Positions 26,367-63,883 of a DNA stretch of 64,000 bases are shown piece by piece. Source of the stretch: Pseudovibrio exalbescens (lineage in GTDB: Bacteria > Pseudomonadota > Alphaproteobacteria > Rhizobiales > Stappiaceae). Location of the stretch: the NCBI RefSeq assembly GCF_028737195.1, contig NZ_JAQZAJ010000007.1:1-64000 (forward strand), in the 5' to 3' direction. The notes under the pieces were generated by a model that saw only the letters and a program-made list of their open reading frames with translations, was not told where the DNA came from and did no database searches. Both the position numbers and the translations under genes were made by a program. Each line of letters opens with the position of its first letter. Positions within the stretch are counted from its first letter, which is position 1.

Positions 26367-27305
26367 ATGATCAATAAAGAAGAAATTACCAAGGCTTATC
26401 AACGCATTGCGCCGTTCATTCGGCGGACGCCAGTGGTGGAGAGTGGAGCTGGCACGTTTGGCCTGCCTTTTTCAATCAATATGAAGTTGGAGCAGGTGCA
26501 GCACTCCGGGTCATTCAAAGCGCGCGGGGCGTTTAATTCCCTTCTGCAAATGAAGGTGCCGGAAGGAGGCGTTGCGGCTGCTTCTGGGGGCAACCACGGC
26601 GCGGCGGTGGCGTGCGCAGCGTCTGCCTTGGGGCATAAGGCCAAGATATTTGTGCCGGAAATCTCCAATCCCGCGAAGATTAAAAAGATCCGTCACTATG
26701 GGGCTGAAGTGCATGTTGAGGGCGCTGCCTATGCGGATGCTGCCGCATTGTGCGCCCGTCACCAGGAGGAAACTGGTGCGATAGATATTCACGCTTACGA
26801 TGCGCCGGGCACAATCAATGGGCAAGGAACGGTTGCGCTGGAGTGGGCAGCGCAGGCGCCGGACCTTGATACGGTGTTGGTGGCTGTGGGCGGCGGAGGA
26901 CTGATTGGTGGGATGAGTTGCTACTATCAAAATGGCATAGACGTGATCGCTGTGGAGCCCGGTGGCGCGTGTTCATTGCACGCTGCACTGGCTGCAAATG
27001 AGCCTGTGGACGTTGAGGTGAACAGTGTTGCGGCCAACAGCCTTGGCGCGAAGCGGTGTGGCACGCATACCTTCGCCTTGGCAAAAGAGTATGTATCTCA
27101 GTCAGTTCTGGTGAATGATGCGGACATTTTGGATGCCCAAGCCAGGCTCTGGACGCAGATGCAGCTTGCGGTGGAGCCAGGTGCTGCGACTGCACTGGCG
27201 GCGTTGATCTCCGGTGCCTACCAGCCCAAGCAAGGTGAGCGTGTGGGCGTTTTGGTCTGCGGCGGCAATGCAGATCTTGGACAGTTGGAACAAGCGCTGG
27301 GCTGA
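26367..27305 (+). CDS. PLP-dependent threonine/serine dehydratase-like enzyme
   Basis: This 312-residue fold-type II PLP enzyme has the lysine motif SGSFKARGAFN near residue 50 (Schiff-base Lys), the substrate loop ASGGNHGAAVACAA near 72, and the phosphate-binding glycine loop VGGGGLIGG near 174. It lacks the C-terminal regulatory ACT-type domain of biosynthetic IlvA, so a catabolic or broad-specificity dehydratase or racemase is more likely. The ATG follows GGCGGGAT 22 bases after a terminator hairpin. Confidence 0.88.
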   Translation: MINKEEITKAYQRIAPFIRRTPVVESGAGTFGLPFSINMKLEQVQHSGSFKARGAFNSLLQMKVPEGGVAAASGGNHGAAVACAASALGHKAKIFVPEISNPAKIKKIRHYGAEVHVEGAAYADAAALCARHQEETGAIDIHAYDAPGTINGQGTVALEWAAQAPDLDTVLVAVGGGGLIGGMSCYYQNGIDVIAVEPGGACSLHAALAANEPVDVEVNSVAANSLGAKRCGTHTFALAKEYVSQSVLVNDADILDAQARLWTQMQLAVEPGAATALAALISGAYQPKQGERVGVLVCGGNADLGQLEQALG

Positions 27306-28328: not shown

Positions 28329-29363
28329 TTAGGCCGCAGCGCTTTTTGGCTGGATCAAGCCTCGGTTCACGAGCACTTCGGCAATCTGAACGGTGTTGAG
28401 GGCTGCGCCTTTGCGCAGGTTGTCTGAGACAACCCACATGTTGAGGCCATTCTCAACGGTGGCATCTTCGCGGATGCGGGAGATGAAGGTCGCGTCTTCA
28501 CCTGCGGACTCGTAAGGCGTGACGTAGCCACCGTCTTCGTGCTTGTCGACAACCAGACAGCCTGGGGCTTCGCGCAGGATGTTCTGAGCTTCTTCTGGCG
28601 TGATCGGGTTTTCGAATTCGAGATTCACGCTCTCAGCATGGCCCACGAAGACAGGAACGCGCACTGCGGTGCAGGTGACTTTGATCGCCGGATCAAGCAT
28701 TTTCTTGGTTTCAGCCAGCACCTTCCATTCTTCCTTGGTGTAGCCGTCTTCCATGAAAACATCGATGTGAGGAATGATGTTGAATGCAATCCGCTTGGTG
28801 AACTGCTGAGGCTCGATCGGGTCGTTCACGAACACGGCGCGGGTCTGGTTGAACAGCTCGTCCATGGCGTCCTTACCACCACCGGATACGGACTGGTAGG
28901 TGGAGACGACAACGCGCTTGATCTTTGCAGCGTCATGCAACGGCTTCAACGCCACAACCAGCTGAGCGGTGGAGCAGTTCGGGTTTGCAATGATGTTTTT
29001 CTTTTTAAAACCAACAATATCGTCGGCATTTACTTCCGGCACGATGAGCGGCACGTCGGCGTCATAACGCCATGCTGAAGAGTTGTCGATGACAACGCAG
29101 CCTTTGGCGCCGATCTTTGGCGACCACTCCTTGGAGATGGTGCCGCCTGCTGACATGAGGCAGATATCGACGTCGGAGAAGTCAAAGTTCTCCATGGCCT
29201 GAACCTTCAGCGTCTTGTCGCCGAACGAAATGTCACGGCCCTGAGAGCGGCGGGATGCCAGCGGCACCACAACGTCTGCGGGGAAGCCTCGTTCTGCCAG
29301 GATATCGAGCATTTCGCGGCCCACATTGCCGGTGGCGCCTGCGATTGCGACCTTGTAACCCAT
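28329..29363 (-). CDS. asd: Aspartate-semialdehyde dehydrogenase
   Basis: This 344-residue enzyme reduces aspartyl phosphate to aspartate semialdehyde, the branch point to lysine/diaminopimelate, threonine and methionine. The NADP loop GATGNVGREMLDIL is at residues 9-22, and the catalytic cysteine is in NPNCSTAQLV (Cys130). The C-terminal half has the dimer and catalytic residues in AFNIIPHIDVF. ATG 29363 is spaced nine bases from AGAGGA. A second ATG at 29372 abuts it. A threonine-rich small ORF, and sequence able to pair with the ribosome binding site, lie just upstream. Confidence 0.95.
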   Translation of the reverse strand: MGYKVAIAGATGNVGREMLDILAERGFPADVVVPLASRRSQGRDISFGDKTLKVQAMENFDFSDVDICLMSAGGTISKEWSPKIGAKGCVVIDNSSAWRYDADVPLIVPEVNADDIVGFKKKNIIANPNCSTAQLVVALKPLHDAAKIKRVVVSTYQSVSGGGKDAMDELFNQTRAVFVNDPIEPQQFTKRIAFNIIPHIDVFMEDGYTKEEWKVLAETKKMLDPAIKVTCTAVRVPVFVGHAESVNLEFENPITPEEAQNILREAPGCLVVDKHEDGGYVTPYESAGEDATFISRIREDATVENGLNMWVVSDNLRKGAALNTVQIAEVLVNRGLIQPKSAAA

Positions 29364-29476
29364 TGGTTTCATTCCTCTTTGTCTCCCCCGTCGAGCGCCC
29401 GGGGGCAAGCCAAGCCGCCCGGTGAGCCCTCTGGCGCCCTCCGTCCCGGGGGAGAGCGCGGGAAAGAGAGGCACCG
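29364..29476 (-). promoter_or_regulatory. Structured leader between the Thr-rich ORF and asd
   Basis: The minus strand here is very GC-rich. CTCTTT just after the leader stop is complementary to AAAGAG in the asd Shine-Dalgarno, and TCTCCCCC is complementary to GGGGGAGA next to it. No U-tract terminator is seen, so sequestration of the ribosome binding site is the likelier mechanism. This is inference. Confidence 0.4.
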
Positions 29477-29596
29477 TCAGACGGTGGTTTTGGTCGTCGT
29501 TGTTGTGTGTGTAGTCATTCGGGCAGCCGTCATCGCGCAGCCCGCTGTTGTTGCGGTTGCTGTTTTCGTCGCGATTTTGATCATCAGATCAGCCAT
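29477..29596 (-). CDS. Threonine-rich leader peptide upstream of asd (candidate attenuator)
   Basis: A small ORF ends 113 bases before asd on the same strand. From the ATG at 29596 it would be 39 residues. From the internal ATG at 29518 it would be 13 residues, MTTHTTTTTKTTV, nine of them threonine. The Thr codons include ACA, ACG, ACC and ACT. This resembles thrL-type leaders, in which ribosome stalling reports threonine supply. A good -35 (TTGACA) with 17-base spacing ends about 40 bases upstream of the longer start. No Shine-Dalgarno is obvious, so which start is used is uncertain. Confidence 0.5.
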   Translation of the reverse strand: MADLMIKIATKTATATTAGCAMTAARMTTHTTTTTKTTV

Positions 29597-29636
29597 TGTT
29601 GTGGCGAGGCCCGTTCTCGTGAATGTTTCGGCAATT

Positions 29637-29665
29637 TTTCTGCCCCGACTTTCGTCGGTTGTCAA
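29637..29665 (-). promoter_or_regulatory. Candidate promoter of the asd leader
   Basis: On the minus strand, TTGACA (29660-29665) is followed after 17 bases by CAGAAA (29637-29642). The -35 is perfect and the -10 is weak. Transcription would begin about 35 bases before the leader ATG at 29596. Confidence 0.5.
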
Positions 29666-30130
29666 CAGGCTTTGCTGGAACGAGCGCGATGGGCATAACT
29701 GCCGGCCGGCGTTGTGGGGTCTGAACGGCACAAAACCCCAGTTATTCCCTGCTGTTCCCCTATTGGGAGTTCAGTTGAATGCTGTGAAACACTGAAAGAA
29801 ACTCAAGAAGTTTTTGCGTTGATGGATGCGTTGGTTTGAAAGAATCTTTCATTTGGTGCGTTCGAATGGTGCCGGGTTGAGGTGCTGCCGCCCTAGAGGG
29901 GCGTTGAGCGTTCTCCACCTGATTTGAAGCGGGGTCATTTTCTGGATCAGGTCGCTTGCGTTCGCAGCAGATGCCTGCCTGGCATGAAGGTGAGGACGCT
30001 GATCCGATCTGGTGTTGCCAGTAGGGTGCCGGTTCGGTCAGCAACCTCTGCTCCGATCTTTGGGTGGGGCCAAGGACCGCTAGAACGAGACCTTTGTAAG
30101 ATAAAATGAATGCAGCATGCATAAATTGCA
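29666..30130. other. Non-coding region upstream of the asd leader
   Basis: No supported gene is seen. Open frames in all directions here are shadows without family similarity or ribosome binding sites. Confidence 0.5.
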
Positions 30131-30134
30131 AGGG

Positions 30135-30500
30135 GCGCGGGGCAGGCAAAACGAGGGCGGTGACGTGCGGAGATGGTGAGACGCGGGGCAGCGGAGACGA
30201 GGGCCGGTGAGGTGTGGAGCTGGTGAGGCGCTTGGCAGGTAAGGCGCGGGGCAGGTGATACAGGGCAGGTCAGACGGTGGGGCAGGCAAAACGAGGGCGG
30301 TGAGTTGATTGGGCAGCTAGGGCGCTGGGTTTTGCAAGGTACCGGGGTCTGGGTTCGGTGAGGGGCAGGGGCGGGAGACACGCTCGGACTGAAGAGATGC
30401 TCGGACAGGGGAGGCGCTGAGCAGTTAAGGCACCTAGGCGGGAGCGCCCTCTGGACAGGAGGCGCACCCGGATAGGAGAGCCCTTGAGCAGTTAGGGGGA
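30135..30500. repeat. Degenerate ~47-bp minisatellite, G-rich
   Basis: Units begin at 30139, 30185, 30232 and 30279 (spacing 46, 47, 47), each opening with (G/T)GGGCAG-like sequence. Units 1 and 4 share 25 identical bases (30139-30163 and 30279-30303). Further G-rich, degraded copies continue to about 30490, including GAGCAGTTA twice (30418, 30486). Encoded frames on the minus strand are proline-rich low-complexity sequence and not a credible protein. Confidence 0.7.
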
Positions 30501-48078: not shown

Positions 48079-48154
48079 GCCGCTGTAGCTCAGTTGGTAG
48101 AGCACGTCATTCGTAATGATGGGGTCGTAGGTTCGAGTCCTATCAGCGGCACCA
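48079..48154 (+). tRNA. tRNA-Thr (anticodon CGU)
   Basis: A complete cloverleaf of 76 bases: acceptor GCCGCTG/CAGCGGC, D arm GCTC/GAGC, anticodon stem CGTCA/TGATG with loop TTCGTAA (anticodon CGT, reading ACG), T arm with GGTTCGAGTCC, and an encoded CCA end (48152-48154). Confidence 0.97.
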
Positions 48155-63806: not shown

Positions 63807-63883
63807 TGGTGACCCCGACAGGGTTCGAACCTGTGACCTGCCGCTTAGGAGGCGGCCGCTCTATCCAGCTGAGCTACGGGGCC
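63807..63883 (-). tRNA. tRNA-Arg (anticodon CCU)
   Basis: A complete 77-base cloverleaf on the minus strand: acceptor GGCCCCG/CGGGGTC, D arm GCTC/GAGC, anticodon stem GCCGC/GCGGC with loop CTCCTAA (anticodon CCT, reading AGG), T arm with GGTTCGAACC, and an encoded CCA end. Confidence 0.97.

Follow-up and report, generated by a model that had tools for sequence, protein, structure and literature searches.

In translational attenuators of the ermC type, a leader peptide region is linked to access to the Shine-Dalgarno (SD) sequence, and ermC itself responds to an antibiotic. Rfam holds a Thr_leader family. Lysine, diaminopimelate, threonine, methionine and isoleucine are all derived from the product of aspartate-semialdehyde dehydrogenase (Asd). 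The locus described here lies in a 64,000-nucleotide stretch of a Pseudovibrio exalbescens contig (hereafter the window). It resembles Escherichia coli thrL in having a leader with Thr codons before a gene of the aspartate pathway (8 Thr in 12 codons for thrL, whose terminator was seen in the same scans). However, thrL precedes thrA, harbours Thr and Ile codons and is followed by a terminator, whereas the leader in the window precedes asd, harbours Thr and Lys codons, and no terminator was found after it. The actinobacterial LEU element also links a leader peptide region to SD access, but there the run of Leu codons itself pairs with the SD (PMC1262725), whereas in the window the strand just after the stop codon is predicted to do so.

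A leader of this kind has been partly described in one species. SEP5 of Sinorhizobium meliloti is presented, in the part of the report accessible to us, as a translated, proposed leader peptide, encoded by a short ORF in the 5'-UTR of a gene termed aspartate dehydrogenase, with six Thr and three Lys codons near its 3' end; in that part it is said to be conserved in Sinorhizobium only, and an RNA mechanism is absent from the account (PMC10117765). The asd leaders that we found in Sinorhizobium (L027, L052 and L058) end with KTTAKTTTKTV, with 6 Thr and 3 Lys, and they fit the published description of SEP5. On that comparison by description, SEP5 is very probably the orthologue of the asd leader. 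The initial annotation had considered the leader unannotated. This holds for Rfam, which at gathering score yielded only two tRNAs in the window and no leader match, no hit at that score in seven relatives, and at E <=5 a single match in the leader region, CyVA-1, whose 15.3 bits (E 1.6) fall short of the gathering score; it must be qualified for the literature, where SEP5 already represents part of the finding (PMC10117765). We found no other reports of an alphaproteobacterial asd leader in the open-access literature, and a word search showed 'asd' to be absent from the main text of PMC2965389 and PMC1273637. New are the breadth of distribution, the RNA structure, the regular presence of Lys codons and the finding that families differ in output, the leader itself being partly known already in one species.

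The downstream gene occupies positions 28329-29363 on the minus strand and codes for a protein of 344 residues, 95% identical to a P. exalbescens protein, which we take to be aspartate-semialdehyde dehydrogenase. As initially noted, a Thr-rich ORF on the minus strand ends 113 bases upstream, with MTTHTTTTTKTTV followed by TGA and 9 Thr among its last 13 codons. Its stop codon lies at 29479-29477 and the conserved ATG of asd at 29363, leaving a gap from 29476 to 29364. Since the same beginning is found in P. exalbescens (L002, ATGGCTGATCTG), we place the start at the ATG at 29596, which gives a leader of 39 codons plus stop beginning with MADL (29477-29596, minus strand; MADLMIKIATKTATATTAGCAMTAARMTTHTTTTTKTTV), with 15 Thr and 3 Lys. 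The presumed sensing codons, the Thr/Lys run from MTTHTTTTTKTTV to the stop, span 29477-29518 on the same strand, as seen in the sequence, the ORF list and the alignment. The MADL start was preferred to a longer reading of 84 residues. An additional upstream ATG in 'GAGGAATG' is missing from the relatives compared. In mononucleotide-shuffled asd upstream regions, ~0.34% contained a stop with at least five Thr among the 12 codons preceding it; the Thr run before asd is more than chance.

For comparative analyses we gathered 110 asd loci, 80 named and 30 further ones, of which 8 were left out and 8 were duplicates. The remaining 94 were assigned to three structural groups based on record titles and kinship rather than on a tree: S (Stappiaceae-type, 35 loci), R (Rhizobiaceae-type, 48 loci) and M (Mesorhizobium/Brucella-type, 11 loci). 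By its nearest named relatives the genome of the window lies in or beside Pseudovibrio, a genus of the Stappiaceae, Hyphomicrobiales. The loci left out (L038, L041, L064, L070, L073, L074, L076 and L077) had leaders that were missing, differently laid out or wrongly picked, although L041 does have a leader. Genome G050 was not part of the sample. In several of loci L112-L140 the asd start was set at an internal GTG or TTG, and their distances are therefore off by a few codons.

The initial annotation had named a lack of conserved Thr codons among relatives as one observation that would count against it. The codons are in fact kept: in 77 of the 80 named loci, a frame ends 70-180 nt before asd and has 4 or more Thr among its final 22 codons, and those below this threshold are L070 (3 Thr), L073 and L076. 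Frequent endings are TTKTTV, TTKTTA and KTTTKTV. Over the last seven codons in group S (27 distinct sequences), we counted 126, 492 and 1146 changes at codon positions 1, 2 and 3, respectively, and at codon -4 AAG and AAA are used about equally (17 and 16 of 35 loci, 2 with another codon). This predominance of third-position changes and the AAG/AAA exchange indicate that the amino acids of the leader are what is conserved, and the asd leader peptide is, on these alignments, real and conserved. All seven further genomes of the window's family harbour a Thr leader. With a threshold of at least five Thr among the 12 codons preceding some stop, a leader was found in 6 of 24 other families of the order, the other 18 falling short, and in 4 of 50 genomes examined outside the order (93 had an asd match). 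The leader is thus common in the Stappiaceae and in the Rhizobiaceae- and Mesorhizobium/Brucella-type groups; elsewhere in the order its occurrence is patchy, and beyond the order it is rare. In L034, L020 and some other Rhizobiaceae-type loci, an inverted repeat CCGGC...GCCGG was seen by eye inside the leader ORF, before the Thr codons; it could form a hairpin at which RNA polymerase pauses.

The leader is preceded by TTGACA at 29660-29665 (minus strand), the presumed -35 element of its promoter, with TTGAC kept in the aligned loci. TTGAC was present between 260 and 40 nt before the leader stop in all 94 aligned loci, at 164-194 nt from it in the 15 loci listed, and 5-mers that are anagrams of TTGAC reached a median of 13 of 94 in the same stretch, two that overlap TTGAC reaching 71 and 61. 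A consensus scan of 29200-29800 revealed no complete sigma-70 site, and the -10 element of the leader is therefore poor. The -35 proposed initially thus stands as a sequence and as a conserved element, but it is not part of a full consensus promoter. Upstream of this promoter, a C-rich stretch carries a tandem array of period 47 with 2.2 copies (30136-30238).

The leader was initially read as a threonine sensor, which fits the conserved Thr codons, but Lys codons are also a regular part of it. Over the last 14 codons, Thr makes up 58% in group S, 38% in R and 49% in M, and Lys 16, 23 and 21%, so that these short leader ORFs are rich in codons for pathway end products. Lys occurs at least once in the final 14-18 codons of all 119 leaders analysed (35, 48 and 11 in the three groups, and 25 from two families outside the order, see below). 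As Lys recurs in all of them, and as Thr and Lys are the products of the two branches after Asd, dual sensing is plausible, and the leader may respond to both amino acids. Lys could instead be a by-product of an A-rich, unstructured codon run in a leader that senses threonine only, a reading to which we give a substantial chance, if somewhat short of even. Consistent with it, the +1 frame is also rich in Lys in groups R and M (0.19 and 0.18), so that A-richness accounts for part of the leader Lys, and the Thr run of E. coli thrL is devoid of Lys. Against it stand the presence of Lys in every leader, the free exchange of AAA and AAG at one fixed position in group S, and a Lys content of 14-23% in leader ends, as compared with 6.6-6.7% for Asd itself in groups S and R.

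Between the leader stop and asd, a succession of elements was identified, namely a switch strand (segment 2), segments 3a and 3b, a variable hairpin and the SD region. In the window (all on the minus strand), folding and pattern scanning reveal a hairpin 1:2 (CACCGTC-TGA-CGGTG, 29472-29486) that spans the final Thr codons together with the stop. The switch strand GGTGCCTCTCTTTCCCG (29459-29475) is predicted by folding to pair either with 3b, as an antisequestor, or with the SD region, as a sequestor. In the minimum free energy (MFE) fold it is followed by 3a (GCGCTCTCC, 29451-29459), by 3b, the partner of 3a or, according to the partner-swap analysis described below, of the switch strand (29433-29447), and by hairpin 4, of little conserved sequence (29393-29431). 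Just upstream of the SD, GGGGGAGA (29382-29389; MFE fold and alignment) is the partner of UCUUUCCC in the sequestor, and the asd SD sequence itself, AGAGGA (29373-29378), starts 15 nt before the ATG. The folding check proposed initially gave an MFE structure that contains 1:2 and 3a:3b and in which the switch strand pairs with GGGGGAGA and with GAGG at the SD; its energy is ordinary relative to shuffled sequences (z of -1.2 and -1.0). The RNAalifold consensus of the 48 group R loci combines 1:2 (GGCC/GGCC), 3a:3b (CCCCGGC/GCCGGGG) and an SD helix (GCUCUCU/AGAGAGC), and its base pairs show hardly any variation.

On a MAFFT alignment of group S, RNAalifold retained 11 pairs only, including the inner 2:3b helix, in which a U-A pair changes to A-U (29 and 5 of 35 loci). 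Because of this small number of pairs, we turned to an alignment-free analysis in which each segment is paired with its own partner or with those of other loci. Own 2:3b partners gave -22.65 kcal/mol versus -17.20 kcal/mol for swapped ones (p = 5e-5, approximate, as are all partner-swap p values, because the loci are related), and in each of the 22 representatives the own partner surpassed the median of its row. Coevolution was weaker for the other helices, with similarly approximate p values of 0.008 for 3a:5 (0.06 in S), 0.08 for the SD helix (0.03 in S) and 0.36 for 3a:3b (0.02 in S), and none was found by this analysis for 1:2 (p = 0.43 overall, range 0.12-0.43, 0.14 in S). The 2:3b hairpin, which was missing from the initial annotation, is thus the helix best supported by the sequence comparisons. 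One group M row without a 3a pattern was skipped in the folding, partner-swap and switch analyses, leaving 10 group M loci in the switch analysis.

For pairing between the SD and the 30 nt that follow the leader stop, the predicted mean probability was 0.52 in group S, 0.60 in R and 0.46 in M, compared with 0.18, 0.20 and 0.26 when the intervening stretch was shuffled. Sequestration of the SD by a leader strand is thus predicted. The initial annotation had proposed that CTCTTT next to the leader stop pairs with the SD; pairing as such is predicted by folding, with somewhat different partners, CCUC with GAGG and UCUUUCCC with GGGGGAGA.

We then folded nascent RNA ending with 3b, while varying where the front edge of a ribosome stands. 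In groups S and R, 2:3b dominates when the edge lies between -15 and +3 relative to the stop, and 3a:3b once it has reached +9; group M has both helices even at +3, with 3a:3b dominant from +6. A switch, defined as 2:3b in the stalled state and 3a:3b with the ribosome at the stop, with at least 6 pairs each, was predicted for 97% of the 35 loci of group S, 83% of the 48 of group R and 50% of those of group M (5 of 10), versus 20, 12 and 13% of the corresponding shuffles. With RNA free from -30, group R would form 1:2 and then 3a:3b, as in a classical attenuator. In untranslated RNA, 2:3b is favoured in 94% of group S loci, and group M is in between; hairpin 1:2 would thus act as a protector in group R only, not in group S.

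Equilibrium folds of the full leader did not separate the stalled from the untranslated state in any of the three groups, the paired fraction of the SD being 0.53 versus 0.58 in S, 0.66 versus 0.73 in R and 0.59 versus 0.61 in M. In addition, a ribosome at the stop covers the sequestering strand itself in group S, where SD-leader pairing is then 0.13. For these two reasons, a working switch would need co-transcriptional trapping and subsequent release of the strand. Mutually exclusive helices chosen by ribosome position are therefore a prediction of the nascent-RNA folds and of 2:3b coevolution, but not of the full-length equilibrium folds.

Together with the leader, the conservation of its codons, the TTGAC element and the complementarity of the helices, the coevolution of 2:3b, all evident in the compared sequences, leads us to propose that this region is probably a ribosome-mediated attenuator of asd, with a leader peptide rich in Thr and Lys codons and with asd translation as its output. 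The complementary 2:3 strands of terminator-type cousins (see below) and the translation of SEP5 in S. meliloti also favour this model. When a ribosome is held up on Thr, and probably Lys, codons, the strand just past the leader stop would remain free; that strand would pair with 3b and could not reach the SD, such that asd would be translated. With plentiful charged tRNA, the ribosome would proceed to the stop and cover the post-stop strand, allowing 3a:3b to form, and after its release the freed strand would pair with the SD region and lower translation. From this model we infer the response to starvation and its direction, the sensing of Lys, and an output at translation rather than by Rho-dependent termination.

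The same leader might instead act by transcription attenuation rather than by SD sequestration, if the C-rich sequence past the stop (CCTCTCTTTCCCGCGCTCTCCCCC) harboured a terminator that is atypical or depends on Rho. A strict scan, which detects the terminator after E. coli thrL, revealed no intrinsic terminator in any of the 35 S or 48 R leaders, but it did in 2 of 11 M leaders; with relaxed settings the numbers were 0 in S, 1 of 48 in R and 3 of 11 in M. In the two group M cases (L059 and L068), the interval from 3b to the SD contains a hairpin with TTTTTATGG after it, possibly a remnant or a working terminator, and a loose pattern scan also picks up hairpin 1:2 and the adjoining CCTCTCTTTC as terminator-like. 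No strict terminators were found in 10 of 10 leaders tested from other families of the order, nor in leaders L114, L120 and L171 outside it. The proposal that the ribosome-binding site is sequestered without a terminator, made initially, therefore fits the predictions for the Stappiaceae- and Rhizobiaceae-type leaders, whose SD pairing exceeds that of shuffles, and we consider transcription attenuation unlikely for them.

Cousins of the leader in two alphaproteobacterial families outside the order (f55 and f61) do resemble plain transcription attenuators, which counts in favour of that alternative. Genomes with an asd match numbered 16 and 19, of which 14 and 18 were readable, and at least 4 Thr in the last 14 codons were found in 11 of 14 and 15 of 18 of the latter, rates that are not class-wide since the families were chosen after a first genome had shown a leader. 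For structural analyses we used 25 of 26 leaders: L238 (5 Thr, with a peptide unlike the others) was left out, L237 (3 Thr) was out as well, and no start was found for L217, L232 and L249. Like the leader of the window, these leaders are rich in Thr and Lys, end 82-143 nt before asd and have a post-stop strand complementary to the following segment. In contrast with the window, their output is an intrinsic terminator, with a hairpin that starts 25-39 nt beyond the stop codon's first base, detected in 21 of 25 leaders by the strict scan and in all 25 by the relaxed one. Their post-stop strand can pair with the region of the terminator 5' arm, as in GCGGGCC/GGCCCGC (7 tested). Its pairing with the SD is low, with a mean of 0.11, four of the 25 reaching 0.38-0.71; it is at most 0.10 in 13 of 14 terminator-bearing f61 loci (raw pairing values), which speaks against transcription attenuation as the output of the window's leader. 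As the f55 and f61 leaders carry terminators and the S and R leaders none, a similar sensor would appear to be joined to two outputs.

Two other explanations bear on the peptide rather than on the RNA. The very uniform KTTTKTV ending in the Rhizobiaceae-type group might suggest that the conserved end of the nascent peptide itself stalls the ribosome; between families, however, only the density of Thr and Lys is kept while the endings differ (TTKTTV, TTKTTA, TTKTGTTTTA, TTKKTLA), and we regard such an arrest as very improbable. That the Thr-rich ORF is an unimportant product of chance or composition could be argued from the poor -10 element and the ordinary fold energy, but conservation in 77 of 80 named loci, synonymous drift and a translated S. 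meliloti homologue leave hardly any weight to that explanation.

Returning to the attenuator model, a broader version of it would be a dual sensor of Thr and Lys placed where the aspartate pathway branches. This sensor would be old in Alphaproteobacteria and would have stayed while its output changed, with terminators in some families and SD sequestration in Hyphomicrobiales, and in which the conserved GGGGAG by the SD perhaps forms a pseudoknot with the 2:3b loop. We put this version forward tentatively, at somewhat less than an even chance. If the attenuator model is true, many soil, marine and symbiotic bacteria of one order gate asd by ribosome-timed access to its translation start, and a single peptide reads the products of both branches. 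The terminator-type and SD-type systems, with their similar leaders, would then form a natural pair for studying one sensor joined to different outputs, and SEP5 of S. meliloti would gain a testable function.

Finally, we searched the genome for other Thr-rich sites. No frame with at least five Thr in its last 13 codons was found in the stretches examined around hom, lysC, thrC and a dehydratase-like gene of the window, which lies close to asd on the opposite strand (26367-27305), gives a weak match to the thrC family (E 6e-9) and has no Thr-rich uORF in its stretch. Runs of five ACN codons were listed at 22 places in the genome, one of which is the asd leader, and no convincing second leader was identified among the 12 sites examined, although three of these (L206, L210 and L215) fall in frames of fewer than 40 codons. 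The window also harbours two tRNA genes, at 48079-48151 on the plus strand and 63810-63883 on the minus strand.
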